From Massilia niastensis DSM 21313 (GTDB taxonomy: Bacteria > Pseudomonadota > Gammaproteobacteria > Burkholderiales > Burkholderiaceae_D): a stretch of 64,000 nt of DNA. The stretch lies in the NCBI RefSeq assembly GCF_000382345.1, contig NZ_KB908086.1, positions 1 to 64,000 on the forward strand. The letters are read 5' to 3'. Below the pieces are notes generated by a model. It saw only the letters and a list, made by a program, of their open reading frames with translations, had not been told where the DNA came from and searched no databases. Of this stretch, positions 177 through 41,603 are shown piece by piece; the stretch's first letter is position 1; each line of letters opens with the position of its first letter. Position numbers and translations under genes: made by a program.

Positions 177-941
177 ATGGACGTGCAAGGAAAATCGGTC
201 CTCGTGACCGGCGGCGCCTCGGGCCTGGGCGCGGAAACGGTGCGCCGCCTGGCCAAGGCCGGCGCCAAAGTGGCGGTACTCGACGTCAACCTGGCCGCGG
301 CCGAAGCGCTGGCCGACGAGATTGGCGGCATCGCCTGCGGCTGCGACATCACCGACACCGCCAGCGTGCAGCAGGCCATGCATGCGGCGCGCGAGCGCCA
401 CGGCCCGGCGCGCGTGCTGGTCAACTGCGCCGGCATCGGCGGCGCCAGGCGCCTGGTCGGCCGCGACGGCGCGCCGATGCCGCTGGAAGACTTCAGCCGC
501 ATCGTGTCGGTCAACCTGATCGGCACCTTCAACGTGATCCGCCTGGTGGCGGCCGAGATGGTGGCGCAGGAAGCCCTGGAAGACGGCGAACGCGGCGTGA
601 TCATCATGACCTCGTCGGTGGCGGCCTATGACGGCCAGGTGGGGCAGGAAGCCTACGCGGCCTCGAAGGGCGGCCTGACCTCGCTGACCCTGCCGCTGGC
701 GCGCGACCTGGCGCAGTTCGGCGTGCGCGTGATGACCATCGCCCCGGGCCTGTTCATGACGCCGCTGCTGTTCAAGCTGCCGGAAGAGGTGCAGCAGTCG
801 CTGGCCTCGTCGATTCCTTTCCCCAAGCGTCTCGGCAAGGCCGAGGAGTTCGCCCAGCTGGCCGAGCACATCGTCGGCAACCTGTCGCTGAACGGCGAAG
901 TCATCCGCCTCGACGGCGGCCTGCGCCTGCCGCCGCGCTGA
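177..941 (+). CDS. SDR-family 3-hydroxyacyl-CoA dehydrogenase (HSD17B10/FadB2x-like)
   Basis: This 254-aa cytoplasmic short-chain dehydrogenase starts with an NAD-binding TGGASGLG loop (residues 11-18). It has the NCAG motif and the catalytic Ser, Tyr and Lys in the segment SSVAAYDG...YAASKGG. Family members that resemble it oxidise 3-hydroxyacyl-CoA or 3-hydroxy-2-methylbutyryl-CoA with NAD+. Its length matches the family (about 255 aa). The start is supported by AGGGAG 8 bp upstream. It lies directly after a thiolase and is closed by a terminator, so it is the last gene of that operon. The substrate is inferred from the family and the thiolase neighbour, not shown by sequence. Confidence 0.88.
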   Translation: MDVQGKSVLVTGGASGLGAETVRRLAKAGAKVAVLDVNLAAAEALADEIGGIACGCDITDTASVQQAMHAARERHGPARVLVNCAGIGGARRLVGRDGAPMPLEDFSRIVSVNLIGTFNVIRLVAAEMVAQEALEDGERGVIIMTSSVAAYDGQVGQEAYAASKGGLTSLTLPLARDLAQFGVRVMTIAPGLFMTPLLFKLPEEVQQSLASSIPFPKRLGKAEEFAQLAEHIVGNLSLNGEVIRLDGGLRLPPR

Positions 942-3805: not shown

Positions 3806-6628
3806 ATGAAAAGCACTTCCCGCGCCAATTCGAACGATCTTTCCTACCACTGCGGCCGTGGCCACGCCCCGGAACGCATGACCGCGGTGGCCTTCGCCGC
3901 GTTCTGCCTGGCCGCCGGCCTCCCGGCCGCCGCCATCGCCCAGGAAGCGCAGCCGGCGCCTGCCGCGACCGAAGCCGCCAACGTCGCGCCGGCGCCTGAA
4001 GCGGTCGTCGCACAGGCGCCGGTGGCGCAGCTGGCGCCGGCCGCGCCGAGCGCCCCGGCGGCGGACAACCAGGTCATCGTGACCGGCAGCCGCATCCGCG
4101 GCGTCGCGCCAGTCGGTTCCCCGGTGATCTCGGTCACCCGCGCCGACATCGACAACTCGGGCGCAACCAGCACCGCAGGCCTGCTGCAGGAAGTGCCGCA
4201 GGTGATGAACCTTGGCGTGTCCGATTCCTCGCGCGGCCAGGCTGGCGGTTCCGGCAACATCACCTACGGTTCCTCGGTCAACCTGCGCGGCATCGGTCCG
4301 TATGCCACCCTGGCCCTGATCAACGGTCACCGCGTGGTTGCACAGGGCACGACCGGCGCCAGCATCGACCCGTCCGTCATTCCGATGCTGGCGCTGCAGC
4401 GCGTCGAGGTGGTGGCCGACGGCGCGTCCGCGATCTACGGTTCGGACGCCGTCGCCGGCGTGGTCAACCTGATCATGCGCCGCAACGTCAAGGGCGTCGA
4501 AGGCTTCGTCCGCTACGGCAAGGGCGACGACTACAACGAGCGCCAGGCCGGCCTGCTGGTCGGCCACGAGTGGAAGGGCGGCCAGTTCGTCGCCACCTTC
4601 CAGCACGACACCCGCGGCGCGCTGAGCGGCCTGGATCGCGACTTCTACAGCGGCGACCTGCGTGCCCGCGGCGGCCGCGATTTCCGCTCCAACCAGTGCC
4701 AGCCGGGCAATATCATCATCAACGGCACTTCCTACGCGATCCCCCAGGGCGGCGTCACCGCAGCCAATGCCGGCGCGCTGGTGCCGGGCACCGCGAACAT
4801 GTGCGACAACCTGAAGTACTTCGACCTGCTGCCGCGCCAGGAACGCAACAGCGGCGCCTTCACCTTCGACCAGAAACTCGGCAACGGCTTCTCCCTGTAT
4901 GCCGACGGCTTCGCCACCCGCCGCGAGTACTACCTGCGCCGGGCGCTGACGGCGGCCAACTTCAACGTGCCGTCCACCAATCCATTCTATGTGCGTCCGG
5001 TCGGCGCACCGGCCGGCACCTCGGAGACGGTCGCCTACTCGTTCGGCGACCAGCTGCCGACCAACGATGCGAGCGGCTTCTCGCGCAGCCTGAACGCCAC
5101 CGTCGGCATCGACAAGACCTTCGGCAACGGCTGGAAGGCCGGCGTGCTGTACACCTACGGCGAGAACGACGACCAGGCGGCGACCTACCTCGGCCTCGAC
5201 AACGCGGCCGTGAACGCGGCGCTGCGCGACACCAATCCGGCGACCGCGCTGAACGTGTTCGGTGGCCCGAACAACCCGGCCACCCTGGCCCGGATCGCGA
5301 GCGACGTTTCGATCTCGCCTGGCCATACCCAGTTCCAGAACGCCCAGGTCAAGGCCGACGGTCCGCTGTTCGAGCTCCCGGGCGGCACGGTGCGCGCGGC
5401 GATCGGTGTCGAGCACCAGCGCATCGAGACAGAAGGCGGCCAGACCAAGGGTCCGAAGCTGACGCCTGAAACGGGCCTGGTCCAGCTCGAACGCAAGATC
5501 GACTCGGCCTACGCCGAGCTGGCGGTCCCGGTCGTCGGCGCCAACAACATGTTGCCTGGCATCTACCGCCTCGACGTCAACGCGGCCATGCGCGTCGACC
5601 GCTACAGCGACGTCGGCACCACCAACAATCCGAAGGTCGGCGCCAACTGGTCGCCGGTAAAGGGTGTGACCGTGCACGGCAGCTACGGCACCTCGTTCCG
5701 CGCGCCGGGACTGACCCAGGTCCGCGGCTTCGCCAACAACGGCCGCGGCGGCCTGTACGTCCAGAACTACTCGGATCCGACCATCGGCGGCGCGCTGCGC
5801 CAGGGCGTGGCCTTCAACGGTCCGAGCGACGAGCTGACCCCGGAAACCGCTCGCACCCGCTCGATCGGCGTGGATTGGGAACCGAAGTGGGGCCGCAACA
5901 CCAAGCTCAGCCTGACCTATTTCGACATCCTGTACGAAAACCAGATCACCGGCTCGCTGTCCGACCTGACCGTGCTGAACCGCGAGGCGCAACTGGCCGG
6001 CACTGGCGTGATCACCCGCAATCCGTCGCCGGAACTGGTGGCCCAGATGACGCGTGACTACGTGGTGGCGTCCGGCGTGCTGCCGGCCACCTGGACCCTG
6101 CTGATCGACGGCCGCAACAAGAACCTCGGCAAATCGCAGACCAACGGCATCGACTTCCAGGCCAGCACCCGCATCGTGACCGATGACTACGGCAACTTCG
6201 GCCTTGGCATCGCCGGCACCTACTTCACGAAGTACGAAGTCGCGCAGAGCCCGGGCGCCGAGATGGCGGATCAGCTGAACCTGATCTTCAACCCGATCCG
6301 CTTCAAGACCCGCCTGAGCACCAACTGGAGCAAGGATTCGTGGTATGCCAACGTGTACGTGAACTTCGCCCGCAGCTACGCCAACAACCTGACCAATCCA
6401 GTGCAGCGCGTCGGCAGCCACACCACGGTCGATGCCCGCATCGCTTATGAACTGGACGGCGGTTGGCTGAGCGGCACCACGCTGGCGCTGAGCGCGACCA
6501 ACCTGTTCGACCGCAAGCCGCCGTTCGTCAACCTGGCCCAGAGCACCAACGGTGGCGGCGGCTTCGACCCGACCATGACCAACCCGGTCGGCCGCGTCGT
6601 CTCGCTGTCCCTGAACAAGCGCTTCTGA
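3806..6628 (+). CDS. TonB-dependent outer-membrane receptor
   Basis: The 940-aa protein has a long N-terminal export signal (hydrophobic part about residues 25-45), then an Ala/Pro-rich linker. The plug domain opens with VIVTGSRIRG (about residues 91-100), contains the conserved NLRGIG and VEVVADGASAIYGSDAVAGVVN segments, and is followed by a 22-strand barrel ending in aromatic Phe. Such receptors import substrates too large or scarce for porins, using TonB energy. AGGAG lies 7 bp before the start. It heads an operon with secreted hydrolases and CoA enzymes, so it probably imports hydrolysis products or oligomers rather than iron. This is inference; the sequence does not identify the ligand. 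Confidence 0.93.
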   Translation: MKSTSRANSNDLSYHCGRGHAPERMTAVAFAAFCLAAGLPAAAIAQEAQPAPAATEAANVAPAPEAVVAQAPVAQLAPAAPSAPAADNQVIVTGSRIRGVAPVGSPVISVTRADIDNSGATSTAGLLQEVPQVMNLGVSDSSRGQAGGSGNITYGSSVNLRGIGPYATLALINGHRVVAQGTTGASIDPSVIPMLALQRVEVVADGASAIYGSDAVAGVVNLIMRRNVKGVEGFVRYGKGDDYNERQAGLLVGHEWKGGQFVATFQHDTRGALSGLDRDFYSGDLRARGGRDFRSNQCQPGNIIINGTSYAIPQGGVTAANAGALVPGTANMCDNLKYFDLLPRQERNSGAFTFDQKLGNGFSLYADGFATRREYYLRRALTAANFNVPSTNPFYVRPVGAPAGTSETVAYSFGDQLPTNDASGFSRSLNATVGIDKTFGNGWKAGVLYTYGENDDQAATYLGLDNAAVNAALRDTNPATALNVFGGPNNPATLARIASDVSISPGHTQFQNAQVKADGPLFELPGGTVRAAIGVEHQRIETEGGQTKGPKLTPETGLVQLERKIDSAYAELAVPVVGANNMLPGIYRLDVNAAMRVDRYSDVGTTNNPKVGANWSPVKGVTVHGSYGTSFRAPGLTQVRGFANNGRGGLYVQNYSDPTIGGALRQGVAFNGPSDELTPETARTRSIGVDWEPKWGRNTKLSLTYFDILYENQITGSLSDLTVLNREAQLAGTGVITRNPSPELVAQMTRDYVVASGVLPATWTLLIDGRNKNLGKSQTNGIDFQASTRIVTDDYGNFGLGIAGTYFTKYEVAQSPGAEMADQLNLIFNPIRFKTRLSTNWSKDSWYANVYVNFARSYANNLTNPVQRVGSHTTVDARIAYELDGGWLSGTTLALSATNLFDRKPPFVNLAQSTNGGGGFDPTMTNPVGRVVSLSLNKRF

Positions 6629-6648
6629 GCTTGATGAGGAACCTGTCG

Positions 6649-7695
6649 ATGAAACCGGTACTTCAAGCCGTCCTGATGCTGGCCGCCACCTGCGCGGCCG
6701 GCGCAAGCCTGGCCCAGGAGCGGGCGCCGGAGAAGGAATTCCCGGCGCCGCCGCCGCCGCCCTACGTCACGCCGGACACGCCGCAGGGCAGCGGCCCGTT
6801 CGGCGCGGTGATGGAAGTCGATCCGGGCCTGCCGACGCACACGGTGTACCGCCCGGCCGACCTGGCGAAGCTCGGCAACGCGAAGCTGCCGATCCTGGCC
6901 TGGGGCAACGGCGCCTGCATCAACGTCGGCAACCGCTTCCGCTACTTCCTCAGCGAGATCGCCTCGCACGGCTTCATCGCCGTCGCGACCGGACCGATCG
7001 GACCGAAGGAAGCGGAAGGGCGCGCCACCAGCGAAAGCCTGCGCGGCACCCCGGCGGCCGGTTCGCCGGGCGCCCTCAACCCGGTCCCGGCCGGCGCCGG
7101 CAGCCGCCGTCCGGCGGACACCACCGCCGCCCAGCTGCGCGACGCGATCACCTGGGCGATCGCCGAGAACAGCCGACCCGGCAGCAAGTACCAGGGCCGG
7201 CTGGACACCACCAGGGTGGCGGTGATGGGCCAGTCCTGCGGCGGCGTGCAGGCGATCGACGCCGCCCACGACCCGCGCGTGAGCACCTTCGGCGTGTGGA
7301 ACAGCGGCGCCTTCCCGGTCAAGGGGCGCGCCTGGGAAATCGCGGCCGCCAACGCCGACAAGGAAGTGCTCAAGACCCTGAAGATCCCCGCGATCTACAT
7401 CTCGGGCGAGCCCTCGGATGTCGCGTTCAAGAATGCCGACGACGACTTCGAGCGCCTCGACGGCCCGGTGTTCCGCGGCTGGCGCGAGCAGACCGGCCAC
7501 GGCGGCACCTACCGCGAGCCGAACGGCGGCGAGTTCGGCGAGGTCGGCGCGGCCTGGCTGAAGTGGCAGCTGAAGGGCGACCAGCAGGCCGCGAAGATGT
7601 TCGTGGGTAGCGACTGCGGCCTGTGCAAGCGTCCGAACTGGCACGTGAAGAGCAAGAACCTGAGCACCGCGGCCAGCGCCAAGGGACAGCCATGA
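6649..7695 (+). CDS. Secreted alpha/beta-hydrolase, paralogue 3
   Basis: This 348-aa protein is related to the two tandem hydrolases upstream but more distant: signal peptide ending SLAQ, NGACINVGNRFRYF block, GQSCG nucleophile, GEPSDVAF acid and QTGHGGTY histidine segments, and DCGLC near the C-terminus. I chose the ATG at 6649 because AGGA lies 8 bp upstream and the signal peptide then matches the paralogues; an in-frame ATG at 6634 adds five residues. It follows the receptor by 20 bp and overlaps the next gene by four bases (ATGA), so it is translated in the receptor operon. Its last residues KGQP recur in two unrelated proteins of this operon. Confidence 0.82.
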   Translation: MKPVLQAVLMLAATCAAGASLAQERAPEKEFPAPPPPPYVTPDTPQGSGPFGAVMEVDPGLPTHTVYRPADLAKLGNAKLPILAWGNGACINVGNRFRYFLSEIASHGFIAVATGPIGPKEAEGRATSESLRGTPAAGSPGALNPVPAGAGSRRPADTTAAQLRDAITWAIAENSRPGSKYQGRLDTTRVAVMGQSCGGVQAIDAAHDPRVSTFGVWNSGAFPVKGRAWEIAAANADKEVLKTLKIPAIYISGEPSDVAFKNADDDFERLDGPVFRGWREQTGHGGTYREPNGGEFGEVGAAWLKWQLKGDQQAAKMFVGSDCGLCKRPNWHVKSKNLSTAASAKGQP

Positions 7696-9482
7696 AAGGA
7701 AGTGCGATGAAAGGATTCAGGATCGCAGCCCTCGGCCTGGCGGCGATGTGCGTCGCCGGCACCGCGGCGGCGGCGGATCGCGCGCCGTCGAAGGACTTCG
7801 GCAAGCCGCTGCCGGCGGCCAGGAACGAAGTCGTGATGAGCTCGATTTACATCCCGATGCCCGACGGCACCCGGATGGCGGCCGACATCTATGTGCCGGC
7901 CAAGAACGGCGTCGCGCTGCCGGGACCCTTCCCGGTGATCTACCACGCCACCGCGTCGCGCCGCCGCTTCGCCGACACCGATGATCGCTCGGGCACCGGC
8001 AAGTTCAGCCTGCAGATGATCAACCTGGCCAGCCATGGCTATGTCTACATGCAGGTCGAGCGGCGCGGCATCGCCGCCTCGTTCGGCGTGCGCCGCGGCT
8101 ACCACGACCGCAAGGAAGCGGGCGACTCGCAATACCTGATCGACTGGGCCTCCAGGCAGAGCTGGTCGAACGGCAAGGTCGGCGGCTACGGCTGCTCGAA
8201 CACCGGCGACGCCGCCATGCACTTCCTGACCCTGCCGAATCCGGCCCTGAAGGCGGTGTTCGCGGGCTGCTTCAACTGGGACAAGTACAGCGGCGGCTAC
8301 CGCGGCGGCGTCCTGGCCAACTGGGGCACCGGCCCGCAGGGCAGCTTCGAGCAGGACATGCAGTCGACCCCGGTCGACGGCGACGCGGACAAGGTGCTGC
8401 TGGCCCAGGCCGCGCGCGAGCACGAGGGCAACACCAAGCTGCTCGACCTGTGGAGCGGCATGCCCTACCGCGATTCGATCTCGCCGCTGACCCGGAGCGC
8501 GTTCTGGGAAGAGGGCAGCATCGGCACCTATGTCGACCGGGTGCGCGCCTCGAAGATTCCCGTGTACGTGCAGGGCGGCTGGAACGACGATTTCCGCGGC
8601 CAGGGTTTCCTCGCCCTGGAAAACCTGTCGCAGCCGGCCAAGCTGATCGTCGGTCCCTGGGGCCATTGCGAAAGCGAAGGCTTCTCGATGACGGCGGAAG
8701 CGCTGCGCTGGTTCGACTACTGGCTCAAGGGCGAGAGGAACGGCATCATGGACGAGCCGCGCATCCACTACACCACGGCCAACACGTCGAAGGGCCACGA
8801 ATGGCGCACCGCCCGGCAGTGGCCGCTGCGTCCGGCCACCAGGACCAGGGTCTACCTGGGCGCGCCCTCGAAGCTGGCGCCGAACGACCACGTGCTGGCC
8901 ACCGCCGCTCCGGCTGCCAAGGCTGGCGCGGTATCGTTCAAGGTCGACTACGAGCCGGTCCCTTGCCCGCAGGGCAACCGCGTGCTGGGTCCGACCTGCC
9001 CGCAGGACAGCAAGGGCCTGACCTTCACCAGTCCGGCGCTGAAGCTCGACACCGAAGTCACCGGTTTCCCGGTCGCCGACCTGTGGGTCTCCTCGACCGC
9101 CACCGACGGCCCGCTGTTCGCCTACCTGGAGGACATCGCCCCGGACGGCAAGATCACCATGGTCAGCGAAGGGCGCCTGAAGGCATCGCTGCGTACCCTG
9201 GGCAAGGCGCCGTACAAGCTGCCGGAAGGCATGCTGTGGCCGACCTTCCTCGAGGCCGACGCCAGGCCGATGACGCCGGGCGTGCCGGTGCGCCTGCAGT
9301 TCGACCTGATGCCGGTGTCGTATATCTTCAAGGCCGGCCACAGCTACCGCCTGACCCTGACCGGCGCCGATCCGCGCGAGAAGCTGCGCAAGGAGCTCGA
9401 CCCGGCGCCGGTCTGGACCATCCACCGCGACGCCAGGCACCCGTCGCACCTGATTCTGCCGATCGTGAAAGGACAGCCATGA
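7692..9482 (+). CDS. Secreted CocE/NonD-family hydrolase (S15 X-Pro dipeptidyl-peptidase-like)
   Basis: This 596-aa protein has a signal peptide (MKGFRIAALGLAAMCVAGTAAAA). The alpha/beta-hydrolase domain carries the catalytic Ser in GCSNTG, Asp in QGGWNDDF and His in GPWGHCES. A C-terminal jelly-roll domain follows, with the ADLWVSSTATDGPLFAYLED segment. CocE-type enzymes hydrolyse esters (such as cocaine esterase) and relatives cleave amides or X-Pro peptides. The start at 7692 overlaps the previous stop as ATGA; an in-frame ATG at 7707 is possible. Being exported beside three other secreted hydrolases, it probably acts on the same extracellular substrate. The bond type cannot be read from sequence. 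Confidence 0.86.
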   Translation: MKGSAMKGFRIAALGLAAMCVAGTAAAADRAPSKDFGKPLPAARNEVVMSSIYIPMPDGTRMAADIYVPAKNGVALPGPFPVIYHATASRRRFADTDDRSGTGKFSLQMINLASHGYVYMQVERRGIAASFGVRRGYHDRKEAGDSQYLIDWASRQSWSNGKVGGYGCSNTGDAAMHFLTLPNPALKAVFAGCFNWDKYSGGYRGGVLANWGTGPQGSFEQDMQSTPVDGDADKVLLAQAAREHEGNTKLLDLWSGMPYRDSISPLTRSAFWEEGSIGTYVDRVRASKIPVYVQGGWNDDFRGQGFLALENLSQPAKLIVGPWGHCESEGFSMTAEALRWFDYWLKGERNGIMDEPRIHYTTANTSKGHEWRTARQWPLRPATRTRVYLGAPSKLAPNDHVLATAAPAAKAGAVSFKVDYEPVPCPQGNRVLGPTCPQDSKGLTFTSPALKLDTEVTGFPVADLWVSSTATDGPLFAYLEDIAPDGKITMVSEGRLKASLRTLGKAPYKLPEGMLWPTFLEADARPMTPGVPVRLQFDLMPVSYIFKAGHSYRLTLTGADPREKLRKELDPAPVWTIHRDARHPSHLILPIVKGQP

Positions 9483-10603
9483 CAAGCCTGATGATGGTCG
9501 GGGACCTGGTCCTCGACGAACCGGATCCGGACTTCTTCTTCGAAGCTTCGCGCGAAGTGCTGCGCAGCGCCGACCTGGTGGTCGGCCACGTCGAGACCCC
9601 GTACACCTTGCGCGGCGCCGAGCTGCAGTCGGACATCCCGGCCGAGGCGGCGGATCCGGCCAAGATCGCCGCGCTGGCGCGCGCCGGCTTCCACGCCGCC
9701 AGCCTGGCCGGCAACCACGTCTACGACCGCGGCGCAGAAGGCATCGAGGACACCGTCGAGGCGCTGGTGACGAACGAGATCGCAGCGTTCGGCGCCGGCC
9801 AGAACCTGGTCGAAGCGCGCAAGCCCGCCATCCTGGAACGGGACGGCAAGCGCTTCGGCTTCCTGAGCTATAACTGCGTGGGACCGAAGGATTCCTGGGC
9901 CAGCGCGAGCAAGGCCGGCTGCGCCTACGTGCACGTGCTGTCGCACTACGAGCAGGAGGGCGCCAACCCGGGCGGCCCGCCGCTCATCTACACCTTCGCC
10001 ACCCCGGCCACGCTGGAAGCGATGCAGGCCGATATCGAGGCGCTGCGCGCCCAGGCCGACGTGGTGGTGGTGGCCCTGCACAAGGGCCTGGTGCATACGC
10101 CGGCCCAGCTGGCGATGTACGAGCGCCCGGTGGCGCGCGCCGCGATCGAGGCGGGCGCCGACATCGTGGTCGGACACCATCCGCACATCACGCGCGGCAT
10201 CGAGTTCTACAAGGGCAAGCCGATCTTCCATGGCCTGGGCAACTTCGTCACCGTGACGCGCGCCCTGAACGTGGAGAAGAACGCGCACCCGGCGCGCCTG
10301 GCCTGGGCCGAGCGCCGCCGCAAGCTGTTCGGCTTCACCCCGGATCCGGAATGCGAGTGCTATCCCTTCCACCCGGAGTCGCGCAACACGATGATCGCGG
10401 ATTTCCGCATCGATGCAGAAGGCAAGGTCAGCGCCGGCTTCCGCCCGGTCTGGATCCGCGCCAGCGGCCAGCCGGAAGTGCTGGGCGACTGCGAGCGCGG
10501 ACGCGCCGTGGCCGACTACATCGCGAAGATCACGGTCGATGCAGGCATGAAAGCAAGTTTCGCATGGGATGGCGAGCGGGTCGTCGTCACCGATGCGCGC
10601 TAG
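9479..10603 (+). CDS. CapA-family metallophosphatase-like protein
   Basis: This 374-aa cytoplasmic protein (no signal peptide) belongs to the CapA/PgsA family of the calcineurin-like metallophosphoesterase superfamily. It has MMVGDLVLDE at the N-terminus, VGHVETPY, LAGNHVYDRGAEGI, VVALHKGL (where many relatives have HWG) and ADIVVGHHPH, which together supply metal ligands. Classical CapA works in poly-gamma-glutamate synthesis and is membrane anchored; this copy is not. Here it is translationally coupled (ATGA overlap) to a secreted hydrolase and precedes CoA-linked enzymes, so a catabolic hydrolase role, for example on an amide or phosphorylated intermediate, is more likely. That role is inference. 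Confidence 0.78.
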   Translation: MTSLMMVGDLVLDEPDPDFFFEASREVLRSADLVVGHVETPYTLRGAELQSDIPAEAADPAKIAALARAGFHAASLAGNHVYDRGAEGIEDTVEALVTNEIAAFGAGQNLVEARKPAILERDGKRFGFLSYNCVGPKDSWASASKAGCAYVHVLSHYEQEGANPGGPPLIYTFATPATLEAMQADIEALRAQADVVVVALHKGLVHTPAQLAMYERPVARAAIEAGADIVVGHHPHITRGIEFYKGKPIFHGLGNFVTVTRALNVEKNAHPARLAWAERRRKLFGFTPDPECECYPFHPESRNTMIADFRIDAEGKVSAGFRPVWIRASGQPEVLGDCERGRAVADYIAKITVDAGMKASFAWDGERVVVTDAR

Positions 10604-10633: not shown

Positions 10634-11767
10634 ATGACCCAACCCGAACCACTCTCCGCCATGCGCCAGGCTTACCAGGAGCGCACCCTCGGTGCGACGC
10701 GCGCCCGCGAGAAGGGCGTGCCCGTGGTGGCCTACCTCGGCAACGCCACGCCGGTCGAGCTGATCGTGGCCGCCGGCGCCTTCCCGCTCCTGATGTCCGG
10801 CGACCCCGGCGAGGCCACGCCGCTGGCCGAGCAGTTCCTGGACGACGACTTCGACGGCGACCTGAAGTCGGTCTACCAGCGCATCGTCGGCGGCTACTAC
10901 AACATGGCCGACCTGATCGTCATCCCGCGCAGCTCGAACGGCCATCTCTACCTGTACTACTTCCTGCTGGAGACGCGCCGCATGCTGCCGGACCAACCGT
11001 TCCCGGAAGTGGTGCTGTTCGACGTGCTGAACACGCCGTACTGGTCGACCGGCCAGTACGTGTTCAAGCGCATGGTCGCGCTGAAGGCGCGGCTGGAAAA
11101 GCTCGGCGGCCGCGCCATCGGCGAAGCCGAGCTGCGCGACGCCATCGCCACCGTGAACCGCAGCCGCGCCGCCCTGCAGGACTTGAACGCGGCGCGCCGT
11201 GAAGGCCGCATCCAGGGCGCCGACATGCTGGCCGCCACCGGCGCCGCCGGCTTCGCCGGCCCGGTGGCGGGGGCCGCGCTGGCCCGCGCCGTCCTGGCGC
11301 AGGCATCGAGCCAGGCGCCGGGCGCCGGCATGCGCCTGATGGTGAAAGGCGCGCCGCACGACAACGCGGCGTTCTACGAACTGGTCGAAGCGCTGGGCGC
11401 GGTGATCGTGGCCGACGATCATGTGAGCGGCGAGCGCAGCTTCGAACACCTGGTCGACGAAGGCATCGAGCCGATCGCCGCATTGACCCAGCACTACCAC
11501 CTGCACGCGCCCGGGATCCGTTCCTTCCCGCAGGCCACGCAGGACCGCCGCTTCATCGAGATCGTCGAGCAGGCCCGGGTCGAGGGCGTGGTGTTCTTCC
11601 ACGACGAATTCGACGACACCCTCGGGTGGGACTATCCGGAACAGAAACGCCTGCTGGACGAACGCGGTATCCCCTCGGTGTTCCTGCAGCAGCAATCCTA
11701 CCGCGCACCCGACCGCGCCGCCCAGGAAGCGGCGATCCGGGCGCTGCTCGAAAGGAAGGCGCCATGA
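10634..11767 (+). CDS. 2-hydroxyacyl-CoA dehydratase-family subunit (HgdB/BcrC-like) lacking cysteines
   Basis: This 377-aa protein has the family outline: TPVELIVAAGAFPLLMSG near the N-terminus, the DLKSVYQRIVGGYYNMADLIVIP segment, and EQKRLLDERGIPSVFLQQQSY near the C-terminus. Active family members hold a [4Fe-4S] cluster with cysteines in these segments and eliminate water, or reduce a ring, by a radical route needing an ATP-driven activator. This protein contains no cysteine at all: the usual CD after IVIP is replaced by SN, and the C-terminal Cys by an acidic stretch. No activator gene is near. It is therefore either a structural partner or a non-redox enzyme. It overlaps its partner gene by ATGA. 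No clear Shine-Dalgarno precedes the start. Confidence 0.8.
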   Translation: MTQPEPLSAMRQAYQERTLGATRAREKGVPVVAYLGNATPVELIVAAGAFPLLMSGDPGEATPLAEQFLDDDFDGDLKSVYQRIVGGYYNMADLIVIPRSSNGHLYLYYFLLETRRMLPDQPFPEVVLFDVLNTPYWSTGQYVFKRMVALKARLEKLGGRAIGEAELRDAIATVNRSRAALQDLNAARREGRIQGADMLAATGAAGFAGPVAGAALARAVLAQASSQAPGAGMRLMVKGAPHDNAAFYELVEALGAVIVADDHVSGERSFEHLVDEGIEPIAALTQHYHLHAPGIRSFPQATQDRRFIEIVEQARVEGVVFFHDEFDDTLGWDYPEQKRLLDERGIPSVFLQQQSYRAPDRAAQEAAIRALLERKAP

Positions 11768-13083
11768 GCGACGCCCCGAAACAGAAGGAAGACCGCCTGC
11801 ATTCCACCGTGCTGGCCAACGAACACCAGAAGCAGGATTTCATCAGCTTCCGCAAGCGCGTGCTGGAGGAGGGCGAACCCTACGTCATCTCCGACGCGGT
11901 GGCGCCGGCCGAGATCCTGCATGCGATGGATATCCCGGTGGTGCCGGTGGTCTGGTACTCGGCGATCGTCGCCGCCAAGCAGCTGTCGCCCCATTATTTT
12001 TCGGTGATGGACAAGCTGGGCTACCACGAGCGCCTGCCGCGCTACACCAGCCTGCCCCTGATGACCACCCTCGACGCCGATTCCGGCCTGGCGCCCTACG
12101 GCGGCCTGCCGAAGCCGATGCTGTTCCTGAACCGCTTCCGCGACGACTACGGCCAGCGCATCATGGAAAAGTGGTCGCAGGCCTACGGCGGGGTGCCGTG
12201 CTTCCCGCTCGAATCGAGCTCCAGCACCGTGCTGGGCGAGCAGTGGTGGACCCGCTCGCACCACGACTGGGAAACCCTGTACGAGACCCACCGCCTCGAC
12301 TTCCAGGTCGAGCAGCTGCACTCGCTGGTGCGCACCGTCGAGACCCTGAGCGGCCGCACGTTCGACAACGCCGAATTCGTGCGCCAGATGCACCGCATCA
12401 ACGAGGCCGGCGAAATCGTGGAAGAGGTGCGCGACCTGATCGCGACCGCCCGTCCATGCCCGGTGCCGCTGACCGAGCAGCTGGCCAACGTGATGGCCCC
12501 GACCTGGGACCGCGGCAGCGAGTGGTCGGTGAACCACCTGCGCGCCTACCGCGACGAAGTGAAGGAGCGGGTGGCGGCCGGCGTCGGCGCCTGCAAGAAC
12601 GAGCGCGTGCGCCTGCTGTGGGTCGGCAACGGCCTGTGGTTCAACACCAGGTTCTACCGCGCCTTCGAGGAAAAGTACGGCGCCGTGTTCGTCTGGTCGA
12701 TGTACTCCAACTTCCTGTCGGACGGCTACCGCCGCTACTTCAACGAGGAGCCGGGCCAGGCCATGCGCGCGCTCGCCTCGCGCCACGTCAGCATGAACGA
12801 ACAGCTGCACGTGCCGCCCTGGATGGCCGACTGGATCATCGAGCAGGCCCGCATCTACGGCGCCGACGGCGCGGTGATGCTCACGCCGACACACGACCGG
12901 ATGGCCTCGTTCGGCAACCGCATGACCAAGGCCGCCCTCGAAGCCGCCGGCATCCCGGTGGTGGAACTGAAAGCCAACATGGTCGACGCCCGCCTGTGGG
13001 ACGACGCCGCGATGACCCGCCAGGTCGAAGAATTCATCGAAACACGCATCAAGCCGAACCAAGCCGCGAAAGGGCAGCCATGA
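11764..13083 (+). CDS. 2-hydroxyacyl-CoA dehydratase-family subunit (HgdA/BcrB-like) lacking cluster cysteines
   Basis: This 439-aa partner of the preceding subunit carries EILHAMDIPVVPVVWY, YGGLPKPMLFLN, QAYGGVPCFPLES and the C-terminal LEAAGIPVVELKANMVDARLW blocks typical of the larger subunit. The three cluster positions are lost: the usual LC.YC pattern reads LPRYTSL, the CD after GLPKP reads RDD, and the C-terminal Cys reads THD. Its three cysteines lie elsewhere (GVPC, ARPC, GAC). The pair is coupled by ATGA to each other and to a CoA-transferase, so a CoA-thioester substrate is likely. Radical dehydration seems excluded unless the cluster is bound in a new way. The protein ends in KGQP. 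Confidence 0.8.
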   Translation: MSDAPKQKEDRLHSTVLANEHQKQDFISFRKRVLEEGEPYVISDAVAPAEILHAMDIPVVPVVWYSAIVAAKQLSPHYFSVMDKLGYHERLPRYTSLPLMTTLDADSGLAPYGGLPKPMLFLNRFRDDYGQRIMEKWSQAYGGVPCFPLESSSSTVLGEQWWTRSHHDWETLYETHRLDFQVEQLHSLVRTVETLSGRTFDNAEFVRQMHRINEAGEIVEEVRDLIATARPCPVPLTEQLANVMAPTWDRGSEWSVNHLRAYRDEVKERVAAGVGACKNERVRLLWVGNGLWFNTRFYRAFEEKYGAVFVWSMYSNFLSDGYRRYFNEEPGQAMRALASRHVSMNEQLHVPPWMADWIIEQARIYGADGAVMLTPTHDRMASFGNRMTKAALEAAGIPVVELKANMVDARLWDDAAMTRQVEEFIETRIKPNQAAKGQP

Positions 13084-14367: not shown

Positions 14368-15615
14368 ATGATGGCAGATAACGCAGGACCGGCCCTGGCG
14401 CCCCAGAAGCGCTGGGTGGTCTACTACCTGGCGACGGTGATCGCGATGATGGCGCTGCAGATGTCCAGCCTGGGCTTCTCGCCGCTGCTGCCGGCGATCC
14501 AGGCCGACTTCCAGATGAGCTTCTCGCAGATGGGCCTGTTCACCGGCATCTACGGCCTGGTGGCGCTGGTGGTCAGCATCCCGGCCGGCATCCTGGCCAA
14601 GCAGTACGGCGAAAAGCGCATCCTGGTCATCGGCATGGCGATCCTGGCCCTGGGCCTGTTCGGCCTGTCGATGGCCGAGAACTACGGCCAGGGCCTGACC
14701 GCCCGCGCGCTGTGGATCTTCGGCTACCGCCTGGCCTTCGTGTGCGTGATGACGGCCATCGCCCTGACCGCGCCCTCGCACCTGAAAGGAAGGGCGATGG
14801 GCGTGCTGGGCGCCTGCTCGGCCCTGGCCACGGTGCTGGGCGCGCCGTTCTGCGCCGGCCTGGCCGAGGCCTGGGGCTGGCGCGAGGCCGTGATGGGCTT
14901 CGGCGGCATGACCATCGTCGGCCTGATCGTGTTCTCGATGTTCTACCAGCAGCGTCCGGAAGTCATGGAAGCGGCGCGCAGCGGCGCCAAGTCGCAGGGC
15001 GCGTTCTCGGCCTTCAAGTATCCGATCGTCTGGACCATTCCGCTCCTGGGCCTGACCAATGCGGGCGGCTTCGCGGCGACCTTCTTCCTGCCCTCGGTGC
15101 TGAAGGCGGACTTCAACCTCGACGCCTCGGAAGCGGCGACCGTGATCAGCATGTCCTACATCCTGGCGATCGCGGTCAACCCGCTGTGCGGCTACCTGGC
15201 CGACCGCTTCAACCGCTGGATGGTCCTGGCCGGCATGATGGTCCTGATGGTCCCGGCCTGCCTGGCCATGACCTCGAGTAACCTGCTGGTGTTCGAGATC
15301 TCGGCCGCGCTGCTGATCTCGCTGGGCCTGGCCTCGACCAACCAGCTGTATCCGACCATCGCGGAACTGATGCGCGGCCGTGACGTCGGCCCGCTGATGG
15401 GCATCACCGCACTGGGCGGCGGCATCTTCGGCTTCCTCGGTCCGCAGGCGCTGGGCTGGCTGCGCGACTGGTCGGGCGGCTTCCATGCCGGCTGGTACAC
15501 CCTGACCGGCGTGGCGATCTTCTCGGCCGCGCTGATCCTGTTCCTGAAGAACTACGCGGAACGCCAGAATGCACGCCTGGCCGCCGCCGGGATGAAACAG
15601 GCGGCCGTCTCCTGA
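14368..15615 (+). CDS. MFS transporter
   Basis: This 415-aa inner-membrane carrier has about 12 predicted membrane segments, a G(X)8-type loop after helix 2 and an amphipathic central loop. The start has AAGGAG upstream, 34 bp after the CoA-transferase stop. It is the last gene of the receptor operon before a terminator. The likely job is inner-membrane uptake of the acid released by the secreted hydrolases; export of a by-product is the alternative. The substrate is not evident from sequence. Confidence 0.85.
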   Translation: MMADNAGPALAPQKRWVVYYLATVIAMMALQMSSLGFSPLLPAIQADFQMSFSQMGLFTGIYGLVALVVSIPAGILAKQYGEKRILVIGMAILALGLFGLSMAENYGQGLTARALWIFGYRLAFVCVMTAIALTAPSHLKGRAMGVLGACSALATVLGAPFCAGLAEAWGWREAVMGFGGMTIVGLIVFSMFYQQRPEVMEAARSGAKSQGAFSAFKYPIVWTIPLLGLTNAGGFAATFFLPSVLKADFNLDASEAATVISMSYILAIAVNPLCGYLADRFNRWMVLAGMMVLMVPACLAMTSSNLLVFEISAALLISLGLASTNQLYPTIAELMRGRDVGPLMGITALGGGIFGFLGPQALGWLRDWSGGFHAGWYTLTGVAIFSAALILFLKNYAERQNARLAAAGMKQAAVS

Positions 15616-21853: not shown

Positions 21854-22735
21854 ATGATTGCGCAAAAAGGTAATCCGGAACCGCATAACCCGCTCGGCAT
21901 CGACGGCATCGAATTCATCGAGTACGCCACCCCCGCGCCGCTGGCGCTGGGGGCGCTGCTCGAACAGGTGGGCTTCGTGCTCACCGCGCGCCACCGTTCG
22001 CGCGAAGTGACCCTGTACCGCCAGGGGAGCATGAACGTGATCGTGAACGCCGATCCGCGCGCGCTGCCGCATGCCGGCAGCGAAGTCCAGTCGACCATCA
22101 TCAGCGCCATCGCGCTGCGCGTGCGCGACGCCGACATGGCCTACCGGCGCGCCCTCGAGCGCGGCGCCTGGCCGATCGCCACCCGCGCCGGCGCCATGGA
22201 GCTGAACATACCGGGCGTGCACGGGGCAGGGGATTCGATCCTGTACTTCGTCGACCGCTTCCGCGATTTTTCCATCTACGACGTCGACTTCAAGCCGGTC
22301 GCCGCCGCCCCGGGCAATCCGCCCGCCATCGCCGGCCTGCATTTCTTCGGCGTGGTCCAGGCCATCGGCGAGGGCCGCGCGAACGAGTGGATCGACTTCT
22401 ACCAGCAGCTGATGGACTTCCAGCCGCTGCCCGAAGGGCGCAGCTTCGGCGTGATGCCGCGCGGCGTGCTGCTCGAAAGTCCCTGCCACAGCTTCTACCT
22501 GCAACTGGTGGAGCCGCCCGAGACCGGCGCCACCCGGCACTGGGACGAACAGCTGCTGCGCATCGGCATGGGCGCACCCGACGTGCCGGCCGCCGTGCGC
22601 GAACTGAAGGGGCGCGGCATCGTGTTCGTCGACCGCGAGGGCGTGCAGCCGAGCGAGAAGGGCGCGCTGACCCAGCTGTACAAGGGCGGCGTCAGCTTCG
22701 AACTGGTGACCAGCCGCCTGGAGGCGCGAGCATGA
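21854..22735 (+). CDS. HPPD-like VOC-family protein (QuiC1 C-terminal-domain homologue)
   Basis: This 293-aa protein has two vicinal-oxygen-chelate modules and resembles 4-hydroxyphenylpyruvate dioxygenase in outline: IDGIEFIEYATP at the start, AIAGLHFFGVVQAIGEG in the second module, and GVSFELVTSR at the end. Genuine HPPD is about 350 aa and acts in tyrosine breakdown. In Pseudomonas QuiC1, an HPPD-like domain is fused behind the 3-dehydroshikimate dehydratase barrel. Here it is a separate gene in the same operon as that barrel, which argues for a role with it rather than in tyrosine catabolism. AGAGAG precedes the start; the next gene overlaps by ATGA. Catalytic activity is uncertain. Confidence 0.78.
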   Translation: MIAQKGNPEPHNPLGIDGIEFIEYATPAPLALGALLEQVGFVLTARHRSREVTLYRQGSMNVIVNADPRALPHAGSEVQSTIISAIALRVRDADMAYRRALERGAWPIATRAGAMELNIPGVHGAGDSILYFVDRFRDFSIYDVDFKPVAAAPGNPPAIAGLHFFGVVQAIGEGRANEWIDFYQQLMDFQPLPEGRSFGVMPRGVLLESPCHSFYLQLVEPPETGATRHWDEQLLRIGMGAPDVPAAVRELKGRGIVFVDREGVQPSEKGALTQLYKGGVSFELVTSRLEARA

Positions 22736-24461: not shown

Positions 24462-24523
24462 CGGGCAGGACGAACGGATAGCGGCCGCCGAGCCGGATAA
24501 CACAGAATATTCAGGAGACCAAC

Positions 24524-25873: not shown

Positions 25874-25880
25874 GAAGAAC

Positions 25881-26663: not shown

Positions 26664-26693
26664 CTGTGCCGGATAGTTGAATCGATGGCGCAT

Positions 26694-26746: not shown

Positions 26747-26781
26747 CATCAGATGTCAGACAACTTGATGAGGAGGCAGGC

Positions 26782-34530: not shown

Positions 34531-35229
34531 TCAATCGATGTAGGCAAGTCCGGCCTTGGCGAGCGGGCCGCGCATGTCGTACATGTCCAGGCCCAGCACG
34601 CCGGCCGCCAGCCGGGCGCGCTTCTCGCCTTCCAGCGCCTCGCGCTGTTCGGCGACGCCGGCCACGCGCGCCGCGTCGCCGGCCGGCACCACCACCACGC
34701 CGTCGTCGTCGGCCACGATCACGTCGCCCGGGTTGACCAGGGCGCCGGCGCAGATCACCGGAATGTTGACCGAGCCCAGGGTGGACTTGATGCAGCCCTT
34801 GGCGCTGACCGCCTTGCTCCACACCGGGAAGCCCATTTCCTTCAGCACGCGCACGTCGCGCACGCCGGCGTCGATCACCAGGGCCCGGGCGCCGCGCGCC
34901 GTGAAGCTGGTGGCCAGCAGGTCGCCGAAATAGCCGTCGCTGCATTCGGCGGTGATGGCGGCGACGACGATGTCGCCCGGCTGGATCTGTTCGGCCGCCA
35001 CGTGCAGCATCCAGTTGTCGCCCGGGTGCAGCAGCACGGTGACGGCGGTGCCGGACACCTGGGCGTCCGGATAGATCGGGCGCATATGGGGCTGGAGCAG
35101 CCCGACCCGGCCCATCGCCTCGTGCACGGTGGCGCTGCCCAGCCTGCCCAGGCGTTCGGCGGCGGCGCGGTCGGCGCGCCCGATGTGGCGCTTGACGATG
35201 CCGAGCCGGTTCATCAGGGAAATACTCAT
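34531..35229 (-). CDS. galC: 4-carboxy-4-hydroxy-2-oxoadipate aldolase (RraA-like fold)
   Basis: The 232-aa class II aldolase has the RraA-like fold with [21 protein letters not shown], in which the Arg-Asp pair binds substrate and metal, and [22 protein letters not shown]. It cleaves the hydrated product of gallate ring opening into pyruvate and oxaloacetate (LigK/GalC reaction). It starts 2 bp after the hydratase stop, with AGGA upstream, and is the last gene of the minus-strand gallate operon. Length matches family members (about 230 aa). Confidence 0.88.
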
Positions 35230-35231
35230 CT

Positions 35232-36285: not shown

Positions 36286-37398
36286 TTATTCGGGGATCAG
36301 CACTTCGCCGCGCATGATGGGGCGCGCCGTGCGCAGCAGGGCGGCGCGCGTCACCCGCTGCCGGTCGTGGGCGTCGAGTTCGAGCTCGACGCTGAATTCT
36401 CCGGTCGGGTGCTCGACCGATACCGTCTTGCGCAGGCCCTGCGGCAGCTGCGCGATGCCCTGGGTGACCGAGCCTTCCAGCACGCAGGCGGTGCCCACCG
36501 TGACCGCCGCCAGCACCCCGATCGCCTCGTGGCAGACATGCGGGATGAAGCAGCGGGTGGCGATGCTGCCGCCGGCCGCCGGCGCGGCCACCAGGCACAT
36601 CTTCGGATAGCTCTTGCCCTTCACGTCGCCCAGGCCCATCAGCGGGCCGGCGGCCAGGCGCAGGGCTTCGAGGCGGGCGCGCAAGCGCCCGTTGCCGTTC
36701 AGTTCCTCGACCGTCTCGTAGCCGGTCAGGCCGAAGTCGGCGGCGCGGACGATCACCATCGGCATGCCGTTGTCGATCAGGGTGGCCTGCACGCCGAACG
36801 CGTCCACGCCGTCGTCCACCAGCACCTCGTCCCTGACCCGGCCGCTGGGCAGCAGCGCAGGGCAGACCGAGCCGGCCGTGTCCAGGAAATTGATGGTGAT
36901 CGGCGCCGCAGTGCCCGGCACGCCGTCGATGCGCGCCGCGCCCGTGTACCGCAGCCGGCGGTCCGGCGTCGGGACCGTGACATCGCACTGCATGCCGGTG
37001 TTGAGGGTCAGGATGCGCGCCGTGGTCGCGCCGTCCCTGATCGGCAGCAGGCCGCGTTCGAGGGCGAAGGGCAGCACGGCCGCCAGCATGTTGCCGCAAT
37101 TCGGGGTCGTGTCCACCGTCTCCTTGTCGGGCTGCAGCTGGGCGAACAGGAAGTCGAGATCGACGCCCGGCGTGGTGCTGGCGCGCACGATGCCGGCCTT
37201 GCTCGTCAGGGGATGCGCGCCGCCCAGGCCGTCGATCTGGCGGCGGTCGGGCGAGCCCATGGCGGCCAGCAGCACGCGGTCGCGCGCGGCCGGGTCCGGG
37301 GGCAGGTCGGATTCGAGGAAGAAGGGGCCGCGCGAGGTGCCGCCGCGCATCAGGATGCACGGAACCGGACGGAGGTCGGAAGGTTGGTCGGTGGTCAT
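36286..37398 (-). CDS. galD: 4-oxalomesaconate tautomerase (PrpF family)
   Basis: The 370-aa diaminopimelate-epimerase-like fold of the PrpF family shows VPCILMRGGTSRGPFFLESDLP, the active-site cysteine segment TPNCGNMLAAVLPFA, and a second half with CHEAIGVLAAVTVGTACVLEGSV. GalD converts the keto form of 4-oxalomesaconate, the gallate dioxygenase product, to the enol form taken by the hydratase. I chose the ATG at 37398 from the family start; an ATG at 37431 lies upstream. It is the first gene of the minus-strand gallate operon, divergent from the regulator with 123 bp between. Confidence 0.87.
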   Translation of the reverse strand: MTTDQPSDLRPVPCILMRGGTSRGPFFLESDLPPDPAARDRVLLAAMGSPDRRQIDGLGGAHPLTSKAGIVRASTTPGVDLDFLFAQLQPDKETVDTTPNCGNMLAAVLPFALERGLLPIRDGATTARILTLNTGMQCDVTVPTPDRRLRYTGAARIDGVPGTAAPITINFLDTAGSVCPALLPSGRVRDEVLVDDGVDAFGVQATLIDNGMPMVIVRAADFGLTGYETVEELNGNGRLRARLEALRLAAGPLMGLGDVKGKSYPKMCLVAAPAAGGSIATRCFIPHVCHEAIGVLAAVTVGTACVLEGSVTQGIAQLPQGLRKTVSVEHPTGEFSVELELDAHDRQRVTRAALLRTARPIMRGEVLIPE

Positions 37399-37521
37399 GA
37401 CGGGTCTCGGTGTGCTTTTCGATGTACGCAAGTATCTTTGGCACAGCCTCGGCCTTGGTTGCTTTGTGCGCCCAACACTGTTCTAATTTTCTTATCACCC
37501 TCCACATTCCCGGTCCCGTCC

Positions 37522-40289: not shown

Positions 40290-41603
40290 ATGGCAAACAT
40301 CATCGGCGCGATCGCGTCCTCCCACACCCCGACCATCGGCTTCGCGCTCGATACCGGCAAGCAGAACGACCCCGCCTGGGCCCCGATCTTCAAGGCCTAC
40401 GAACCGGTCCAGCAATGGCTGGCCGAGAAGAAGCCCGACGTGCTGCTGGTGGTGTACAACGACCACGTCACCTCGTTCTTCTTCGACCACTACTCGGCCT
40501 TCGCGCTGGGCATCGGCGACCAGTACCGGGTCGCCGACGAGGGCGGCGGCGCGCGCGACCTGCCGCCGGTCGCCGGCCATGCCGGGCTGGCGCGCCACAT
40601 CGGCCAGTCGCTGATGGCCGACGAATTCGACATGTCCTTCTTCCAGGACAAGCCGCTCGACCACGGCTGCTTCTCGCCGCTGTCGATCCTGTGGCCGCAC
40701 GAGGGCGGCTGGCCGGGCAGCATCGTGCCGCTGCAGTGCGGCGTGCTGCAGTTCCCGGTGCCGTCCGCGCGCCGCTGCTTCAAGCTCGGCCAGGGCCTGC
40801 GCCGTGCGATCGAAAGCTATCCGGAAGACCTGAACGTGGTGCTGGTGGCCACCGGCGGCCTGTCGCACCAGGTGCACGGCGAGCGCGCCGGCTTCAACAA
40901 CACGCCCTGGGATCACCAGTTCCTCGACCTGTTCGAGAAGGATCCGGAAACCCTGCTGAACATGACCCATGCCGACTTCGCCCGCCTGGGCGGCTGGGAA
41001 AGCGCGGAAGTGGTGATGTGGATGGTGGCGCGCGGCGCCATGGCGAGCAAGCTGCGCTGCCTGCACCGCGAATACTACCTGCCGTCGATGACCGGGATCG
41101 CGGTGGCCCTGTACGAGAACGAGGCCAACCCCGATCCCGCCTTGAGCGCGAAAGCCAACGAGCGCCAGCGCGCCCACATGCGCCACCAGACGGCGGGCGT
41201 CGAGGAACTGGAAGGCACCTATCCGTTCACCCTGCAGCGCAGCGTCGAGGGCTACCGTATCAACAAGTACCTGCACCAGCTGGTCCAGCCGGAGTTCCGC
41301 GCCCGCTTCCTGGCCGATCCGCAAGCGACCTACGAGGAAGCCGGCCTGCTGCCGGAAGAGCGCGACCTGATCACGCGGCGCGACTGGCAGGGCTTGATCC
41401 GCTATGGCGCGATCTTCTTCCTGCTGGAGAAGCTGGGCGCGGTGGTGGGCGTGTCCAACCTGCACATCTACGCCGCCATGCGCGGCGAGACACTGGAAGA
41501 CTTCCAGAAGACGCGCAACACCAGGGCGCTGTATTCGGTCGCCGGCGCGGGCGCCGCCAGCGGCGCCGACTGGAACAAGGACCAGGACCAGTCCCGGTCC
41601 TGA
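40290..41603 (+). CDS. galA: Gallate dioxygenase (LigB-LigA fused extradiol dioxygenase)
   Basis: This 437-aa type II extradiol dioxygenase has a LigB-like catalytic domain (residues 1 to about 280) with the metal-binding IASSHTPTIGF, NDHVTSFFFDHY and VLVATGGLSHQVHG motifs. It is fused to a LigA-like C-terminal domain (INKYLHQLVQPEFRARFLADP... through about 400). GalA and DesB have this fusion, while LigAB is two proteins. It opens gallate between C4 and C5 with O2 and Fe2+ to 4-oxalomesaconate. AAGGA lies upstream. The regulator, transporter and downstream enzymes of the pathway are all adjacent. Confidence 0.93.
   Translation: MANIIGAIASSHTPTIGFALDTGKQNDPAWAPIFKAYEPVQQWLAEKKPDVLLVVYNDHVTSFFFDHYSAFALGIGDQYRVADEGGGARDLPPVAGHAGLARHIGQSLMADEFDMSFFQDKPLDHGCFSPLSILWPHEGGWPGSIVPLQCGVLQFPVPSARRCFKLGQGLRRAIESYPEDLNVVLVATGGLSHQVHGERAGFNNTPWDHQFLDLFEKDPETLLNMTHADFARLGGWESAEVVMWMVARGAMASKLRCLHREYYLPSMTGIAVALYENEANPDPALSAKANERQRAHMRHQTAGVEELEGTYPFTLQRSVEGYRINKYLHQLVQPEFRARFLADPQATYEEAGLLPEERDLITRRDWQGLIRYGAIFFLLEKLGAVVGVSNLHIYAAMRGETLEDFQKTRNTRALYSVAGAGAASGADWNKDQDQSRS

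Follow-up and report, generated by a model that had tools for sequence, protein, structure and literature searches.

Enzymes with the benzoyl-CoA reductase/2-hydroxyacyl-CoA dehydratase (BCR/HAD; CoA, coenzyme A) fold are a standard example of extreme, oxygen-sensitive radical chemistry. What does such a fold do when the cysteines that hold its iron-sulfur clusters are gone? This question is raised by two adjacent genes of the soil bacterium Massilia niastensis DSM 21313, located in the first 64,000 nucleotides of contig NZ_KB908086.1 (assembly GCF_000382345.1), the stretch of DNA that was analyzed as a whole and is referred to here as the window. The open reading frames of the small subunit (P0001) and the large subunit (P0002) overlap by 4 bases. 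An original prediction, made from the DNA letters, had claimed for this pair a complete loss of cluster cysteines and a possible place in a separate, oxygen-tolerant branch. Our analysis points to the reuse of an anaerobic enzyme fold for chemistry without iron.

Fold and ligand positions of the gene pair

Both subunits score above the PF06050 (HGD-D) cut-off of 28.4 bits (Table 1), and they are the only proteins of the 6.59-Mb genome that match this family. PF06050 exceeds its cut-off in 8 of 398 Pseudomonadota genomes, and P0002 matches place four of these (G000, G170, G362, and G387) in the family of the pair. The NCBIfam equivalog models for benzoyl-CoA reductase, HadBC, and double-cubane proteins all stayed below their cut-offs, with best scores of 87 against 350 bits for the small and 71.9 against 448.6 bits for the large subunit. 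The subunits were modeled with AlphaFold from two family alignments, A4 with 38 rows and A5 with 33, and the models were compared with the PDB using Foldseek. The predicted large subunit resembles BzdO (8s02_C and 8s02_A, template modeling (TM) scores 0.80 and 0.82), MbdO, and HadB, and the predicted small subunit resembles BzdN (8s02_B, TM 0.89) and HadC. All matches with E ≤ 0.001 were BCR/HAD or double-cubane proteins, except for one marginal NifEN chain matched by the small subunit (E 9.7e-4, TM 0.21). When viral contigs were scanned with P0002 as the only query, no match appeared, and a viral origin was set aside.

According to PMC11971306, the cluster of BzdO is held by Cys95, Cys128, and Cys380, the [8Fe-9S] cluster of BzdN is held by Cys36, Cys73, Cys100, Cys263, Cys293, and Cys327, and Glu65 and His131 of BzdO are the acid/base residues. 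We mapped these columns onto the window proteins via the chain fragments printed by HMMER, with MbdO and HadB standing in for BzdO in the large subunit. More specifically, the columns of HadB C84/C117/C346 and MbdO C96/C129/C383 fall on P92, D127, and D378 of P0002. The six BzdN columns fall on G36, D74, S101, V264, G294, and D327 of P0001, with every cysteine replaced, and HadC C72/C99/C325 correspond to D74, S101, and D327 of the same protein. The catalytic Glu column, defined by HadB E55 and MbdO E67, which appear to be the counterparts of BzdO Glu65, is occupied by V63 in P0002. The codon positions of the mapped residues (Table 1) were confirmed in the window. BzdO His131 was unusable as a family-wide test, as the residue three places beyond the second ligand cysteine is not His in the MbdO and HadB fragments. 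P0001 contains no cysteine at all, and the three cysteines of P0002 (146, 232, and 277) lie outside the ligand columns. The ligand map thereby bears out both the predicted motif changes at the ligand positions and the prediction of a small subunit entirely free of cysteine.

The activator model TIGR00241 (CoA_E_activ) had no match in the window genome, while an E. coli control was positive. Two PF01869 matches are present, which by eye look like the sugar-kinase type and do not carry the Cys motif of true activators. The ATPase activator that had been noted as missing nearby is thus also missing genome-wide, and an activator acting in trans, the objection named with the original prediction, is rejected by this search. 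We extended the survey to 53 genomes, comprising two canonical controls (both positive) and 51 family carriers, with completeness mostly not given. No activator exceeded the cut-off in any of the 21 genomes whose family member has no large-subunit cluster cysteine (Cys-free), and when the flanks fetched for 87 family loci were searched by BLAST with two activators, none turned up.

Graded cysteine loss and the window clade

A profile scan of genome contigs with alignment A1 returned 308 relatives, of which the best 80 of 308 by match were kept; the scan used the patterns [HA]E[IV][FL]H[AV]MD and GAVFVWSM and is biased toward relatives that keep them. Together with loci from plasmids and genome searches, this yielded 90 large-subunit rows, 88 from the family (including P0002) and two canonical (L012 and L013). 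L020 and L026 each contain another copy, which was excluded; in L026 this is a divergent small/large pair of its own (L026:813-4417, minus strand). L057, whose record title names a Klebsiella pneumoniae metagenome-assembled genome (MAG), sits with MAGs of Gammaproteobacteria, and this name may be wrong.

At the three large-subunit ligand sites, 22 of the 88 family rows have no cysteine and 66 have three to five. The prevailing arrangement pairs a CxxC motif at site 1 with CDC at site 2 (62 of 88, four-Cys rows). Most sister large subunits therefore have four cysteines, the one at site 3 being swapped for an extra one in CDC. Two rows, L033 and L034, have CxxC with one cysteine each at sites 2 and 3, L050 has five cysteines, and L086 has three. 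Among 80 small-subunit family rows, the three core positions contain a single Cys cell (L011, column 101), and six rows show Cys in the column of BzdN 293, outside the core, where the alignment of divergent small subunits is uncertain. Nine family loci yielded no small subunit; these are mostly short pieces, but L033 extends 10 kb on each side. In L011 the two subunits are fused in one 795-aa frame (L011:349-2736), with no cluster cysteine in the large half and the single one at column 101 in the small half. The large subunit L016:12001-13287 and 61 further rows combine CxxC, CDC, and Gln at the catalytic Glu column; their small subunits are ligand-poor, and an activator is usually absent. In the same locus, L016:9920-12004 encodes a 694-aa protein annotated as a CoA transferase, by eye two fused halves, whose BLAST cluster covers 51 loci, not all of them fused.

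The window pair falls into a clade of 18 rows with a support of 100/100, which includes Massilia, Sphingomonas, Devosia, Rhodobacterales, and Nocardia, bacteria that we take to be aerobes. In the alignment of these 18 members, neither Cys nor His fills any of the three large-subunit ligand columns; either would have counted against the original prediction. The catalytic Glu column still reads Glu in both canonical rows but Gln in every one of the 62 four-Cys rows; in all 18 rows of the clade it is V, T, A, or P. Column 378 is D in 18 of 18 clade members versus N, T, S, or H in the four-Cys rows. Comparison of the 18 clade members with the 62 four-Cys rows shows 69 large-subunit columns that are near-invariant in each set and only five (including T126 to R126) that are fixed differently, indicating that most of the protein was untouched by cluster loss. 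Trp 64, 248, 254, 292, and 311 are kept in all 80 of these rows, bar one Tyr at 64, and are absent from the two canonical rows. C232 was considered as a new catalytic cysteine and rejected, with Cys in only 9 of 18 clade rows.

Purifying selection acts on both genes. The Nei-Gojobori ratios of nonsynonymous to synonymous substitution (dN/dS) were 0.13, 0.093, 0.098, 0.133, and 0.077 in five comparisons of the large subunit and 0.304, 0.19, 0.308, and 0.337 in four of the small subunit, two comparisons per subunit involving the window gene. Together with the fixation of the replacement residues (R126 and D378 in 18 of 18, P92 in 17 of 18), this shows a pattern that exceeds chance. A second Cys-free group (L010, L066, and L077) also has D378, with Ser at 126 and His at 130; lacking R126, it did not take the same path as the window clade. 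In a tree of 51 rows, with ligand columns removed and L011-L013 left out, the Cys-free state requires two changes, and a single origin occurred in 0% of 200 bootstrap trees, but one Cys-free clade was not rejected by the approximately unbiased (AU) test (p 0.086), so that neither one nor two losses are proved.

These results change the outline of what had been predicted. The lost ligands had been taken as a mark of the pair; the loss is real, but in the small subunit it is common to nearly the whole sampled family. Likewise, the proposed separate branch exists and is conserved, but it was drawn too narrowly, since it ends a series in which most sisters keep four large-subunit cysteines and mostly do without an activator.

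Gene neighborhood and aromatic catabolism

The predicted coupling to a class III CoA-transferase is confirmed by the PF02515 score and the overlap of the transferase with P0002 (Table 1). The nearest solved relatives of this enzyme are YfdE, a CaiB/BaiF protein, and succinate-hydroxymethylglutarate CoA-transferase. We counted neighbors by BLAST labels in fetched flanks of up to 10 kb, many of them shorter, at 21 Cys-free and 66 other family loci. Class III CoA-transferase relatives, either of the window's or of the sisters' type, occur at 17 of the 21 Cys-free loci and at 62 of the 66 others. For the remaining window neighbors, the counts at Cys-free versus other loci were as follows: CapA relatives (5/21 versus 47/66), CocE relatives (4/21 versus 35/66), alpha/beta hydrolase relatives (3/21 versus 39/66), TonB receptor relatives (6/21 versus 34/66), and major facilitator superfamily (MFS) relatives (5/21 versus 13/66). 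Tripartite ATP-independent periplasmic (TRAP) transporters were counted at 3/21 versus 41/66 loci, and a PIG3-type reductase at 8/21 versus 0/66. Most window genes are thus common to Oxalobacteraceae relatives and, in varying selections, to four-Cys sisters of several phyla. The CapA-like protein itself gave its best NCBIfam score with a lasso-peptide Trp epimerase model (102.9 bits, cut-off 700).

Genes of aromatic metabolism accompany the pair at several loci. In the window, gallate dioxygenase, 4-oxalomesaconate tautomerase, and the LigK aldolase are found downstream at a distance of about 20 kb. In G514, which belongs to the same genus, the alpha and beta subunits of protocatechuate 4,5-dioxygenase (ligA, 233.8 bits, cut-off 108.6; ligB, 587.5, cut-off 317) and 4-oxalomesaconate tautomerase (542.8, cut-off 440) lie approximately 5-10 kb from the pair. 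L019 carries the 3-oxoadipyl-CoA thiolase PcaF (726.6, cut-off 597) and a pcaI/scoA-family subunit (387, cut-off 128.5), L024 carries 4-hydroxybenzoate 3-monooxygenase (685.1, cut-off 538.7), and p-hydroxycinnamoyl-CoA hydratase/lyase genes stand beside L017, L050, and L069. The pair is present in 5 of 62 genomes of the genus, and gallate dioxygenase exceeds its cut-off in 3 of these 5 carriers versus 8 of 57 non-carriers (Fisher p 0.035, uncorrected for relatedness). The link of the pair to aromatic compounds is moderate, and a role in aromatic catabolism is probable.

Further genes of this kind were seen in the window. The gallate degradation region (34531-41603) also contains an amidohydrolase plus a transporter resembling PcaK (below cut-off). 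At 21854-26783, two separate genes resemble halves of the 3-dehydroshikimate dehydratase QuiC, an HPPD-like one (21854-22735) and a TIM barrel (23580-24461), and beside them are a shikimate-transporter-like MFS protein and a PcaR/PcaU-type regulator; all four are below cut-off. A Saro_0803-type regulator, considered as a link to stilbenes or hydroxycinnamates (cf. PMC10046596), was not used, as all scores fell below the cut-off of 200 bits (L050, 139; L023, 70; L035, 75; L051, 88; none in L069).

Table 1 Genes of the window and codons at ligand and catalytic columns of the pair
Feature	Position	Strand	Evidence
Small subunit P0001, 377 aa, BzdN/HadC-like fold	10634..11767	+	PF06050 143.4 bits; AlphaFold mean pLDDT 95.1; Foldseek best 8s02_B, TM 0.89
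Large subunit P0002, 439 aa, BzdO/HadB-like fold	11764..13083	+	PF06050 143.8 bits; AlphaFold mean pLDDT 88.9; Foldseek TM 0.80-0.82 to BzdO chains 8s02_C, 8s02_A
Class III CoA-transferase, 4-base overlap with P0002	13080..14333	+	PF02515 347.6 bits
MFS transporter	14368..15615	+	PF07690 154.5 bits
CapA-like (PGA_cap) protein, upstream of pair	9482..10603	+	PF09587 199.6 bits
CocE/NonD family hydrolase (start uncertain)	7692..9482	+	TIGR00976 262.3 bits, cut-off 66.3; cocaine esterase relatives
Alpha/beta-hydrolase-like protein (start uncertain)	6463..7695	+	Weak PETase match, below cut-off
TonB-dependent receptor	3806..6628	+	PF00593, PF07715
Short-chain dehydrogenase/reductase (SDR)	177..941	+	PF00106; relatives near pair in L019, L021, L022, G514
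Gallate dioxygenase, downstream context only	40290..41603	+	NF009904 777 bits, cut-off 412
4-Oxalomesaconate tautomerase, downstream context only	36286..37431	-	NF033377 515.9 bits, cut-off 440
4-Carboxy-4-hydroxy-2-oxoadipate aldolase (LigK), downstream context only	34531..35217	-	TIGR02798 383.2 bits, cut-off 304.5
Codon D74, column BzdN C73 / HadC C72	10853..10855	+	0 Cys, 2 gaps in 80 family rows
Codon S101, column BzdN C100 / HadC C99	10934..10936	+	1 Cys (L011), 2 gaps in 80 family rows
Codon D327, column BzdN C327 / HadC C325	11612..11614	+	D 66/80, E 14/80 family rows
Codon V63, column of catalytic Glu (MbdO E67, HadB E55)	11950..11952	+	Q 62/62 four-Cys rows; V/T/A/P 18/18 clade rows
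Codon P92, first cluster Cys column (HadB C84)	12037..12039	+	P 17/18, A 1/18 clade rows; C 62/62 four-Cys rows
Codons R126-D127; D127, second cluster Cys column (HadB C117)	12139..12144	+	R126 18/18 clade rows; T 62/62 four-Cys rows
Codon D378, third cluster Cys column (HadB C346)	12895..12897	+	D 18/18 clade rows
Codon C277	12592..12594	+	Cys in 21/22 rows without cluster Cys versus 14/66 other family rows

Possible functions and relation to known systems

The reading that we favor, at a little under an even chance, is that the pair forms a cluster-free, non-radical heterodimer of the BzdNO/HadBC fold that would act on a CoA thioester from the adjacent CoA-transferase, with its product feeding aromatic ring cleavage. 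The shared core together with the missing redox parts fits an enzyme that handles CoA thioesters by polar chemistry. A chemistry other than the known radical one, as originally proposed, is supported by the missing ligands and activator, from which we infer it. In a possible sequence of events, the CocE and alpha/beta hydrolases, which look exported, and the TonB receptor would act on an ester of a plant-type aromatic or hydroxy acid, releasing it and taking it up, the MFS carrier would import the acid, and the class III CoA-transferase would convert it to its CoA thioester. The pair might then carry out a polar acid-base reaction on this thioester; our guess is the addition or elimination of water, or else C-C cleavage, after which the product could enter protocatechuate or gallate ring cleavage. 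The former cluster pockets may be plugged by charged pairs, R126-D378 in the large and R99-D327 in the small subunit, and the family-specific Trp residues listed above would suit an aromatic acyl group.

Several observations weigh against this reading. In two carriers of the genus, G511 and G517, the gallate gene lies on a different contig than the pair. Furthermore, BLAST (E ≤ 1e-20) showed no relative of the window's gallate dioxygenase, 4-oxalomesaconate hydratase-like protein, or tautomerase in the flanks fetched for the family loci, and a gallate link across the wider family was rejected on this ground. The ferulate/hydroxycinnamoyl-CoA lyase route suggested by the neighbors of L017, L050, and L069 is unsupported in the genus, where this lyase exceeds its cut-off in 0 of 5 carriers versus 17 of 57 non-carriers (p 0.31). 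No CoA-transferase was seen near L030 or L035, and other Cys-free loci (Rhizobium, Devosia, and Rhodobacterales) have different neighbors, such as ABC transporters and the PIG3-type reductase. With CocE and CapA at so few Cys-free loci and other neighbors elsewhere, a single substrate for the whole clade is doubtful. An activator exceeds the cut-off in 4 of 30 other family genomes (L033, L034, L042, and L052; L036 is below cut-off). As the aromatic link proved weaker on recount, our confidence, initially even, was lowered slightly.

With all tested known catalytic groups gone and a small-subunit dN/dS two to three times the large-subunit value, the pair might instead be catalytically dead, serving as a CoA-thioester-binding scaffold or as a partner of the adjacent CoA-transferase. 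We consider this rather unlikely given the strong constraint on the large subunit (dN/dS 0.08-0.13) and its dense invariant Trp, Arg, His, and Glu, and the loci with no visible CoA-transferase, L030 and L035, speak against it as well. A lesser probability goes to a mononuclear metal enzyme, with the metal held by Asp, His, or other side chains such as D127, D128, H377, and D378. Two of the three large-subunit ligand columns are indeed Asp in P0002, H377 adjoins the third, D378 and D128 are conserved in 18 and 17 of 18 clade members, and column 130 is His in all three members of the second Cys-free group. However, among the 18 clade rows position 127 reads Gly in 11 and Ser in 2, and only 4 have His at 377, so that the clade does not conserve a complete set of ligands; position 128, moreover, is likewise D or E in all 62 four-Cys rows. 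Our order of likelihood runs from side-chain hydration/dehydration or C-C cleavage through a non-catalytic role to a new metal site.

Known 2-hydroxyacyl dehydratases use a radical because the 3-hydrogen of their substrates is unactivated. This speaks against an FldABC-like route, in which the CoA-transferase would load an aryl-lactate and the pair would eliminate the 2-hydroxyl by polar chemistry to give a hydroxycinnamoyl-CoA, as does the result for the lyase in genus carriers. A class III CoA-transferase with an HGD-like pair is the gene logic of FldABC, however, enoyl-CoA hydratase-like, acyl-CoA synthetase, thiolase, and SDR genes lie upstream of the pair in G514 and L021, and hydroxycinnamoyl-CoA lyase genes lie near L017, L050, and L069; on balance we hold this route to be improbable. 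The same low standing applies to the fuller proposal of a putative cluster-free, oxygen-tolerant dehydratase, removing the 2-hydroxyl of aryl-lactoyl-CoA by polar chemistry and so reaching, with neither iron nor radical, a result that the known family attains only through a ketyl radical, that would have evolved by stepwise loss of the small-subunit cluster, the catalytic Glu, and then the large-subunit cluster, perhaps repeatedly. An ordinary radical dehydratase or reductase with its activator in trans would agree with PF06050 membership and fold, but is scarcely conceivable when neither subunit has a ligand and the genome encodes no activator. Decay toward loss could account for the presence of the pair in so few genomes of the genus, but is barely credible while the window frames are open, dN/dS is well below 1 in nine comparisons, and related loci occur in other classes and phyla.

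If the favored reading of a cluster-free enzyme holds, a conserved, presumably aerobic branch minus both clusters, the Glu, and the activator would show that this fold has another use for CoA thioesters. Among the titles and abstract openings searched, with most subscription journals outside the scope, we found no published account of a Cys-less or aerobic pair, and no name for the four-Cys sister enzymes. Where four-Cys relatives are annotated, they carry the label "2-hydroxyacyl-CoA dehydratase family protein", and pathway predictions that rely on it may go astray.

Among known systems, the class I benzoyl-CoA reductase BzdNO (PDB 8s02) shares the two-subunit fold and is the top Foldseek match of both subunits, but the window pair does not have its three large-subunit and six BzdN cluster cysteines, catalytic Glu, or a genome-encoded activator. 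The (R)-2-hydroxyisocaproyl-CoA dehydratase HadBC (PDB 3o3m and relatives) shares the fold at query-normalized TM scores of 0.79-0.81 for the large and 0.88 for the small subunit, whereas its C84/C117/C346 and C72/C99/C325 are all replaced in the window pair, which has no HadI-like activator. The HadABC operon includes a class III CoA-transferase, HadA, as does the window. In phenyllactate dehydratase, FldABC, a CoA-transferase is likewise combined with an HGD-like pair, and the substrate of the window pair may be aromatic too, but the latter has neither cluster ligands nor an FldI-like activator. The double-cubane proteins (PDB 6eno, NF040772) share the fold of P0001, which differs by its low score with their model (87 bits, cut-off 350) and its lack of Cys. 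The pair can also be compared with the four-Cys sisters of Novosphingobium, Acidobacteriota, and others (e.g., L016-L018 and L036), with a 42-49% identical large subunit, a ligand-poor small subunit, and overlapping neighbors; they differ in keeping CxxC and CDC and in their invariant Gln at the catalytic Glu column. These sisters would be living intermediates, which makes the order of loss testable.

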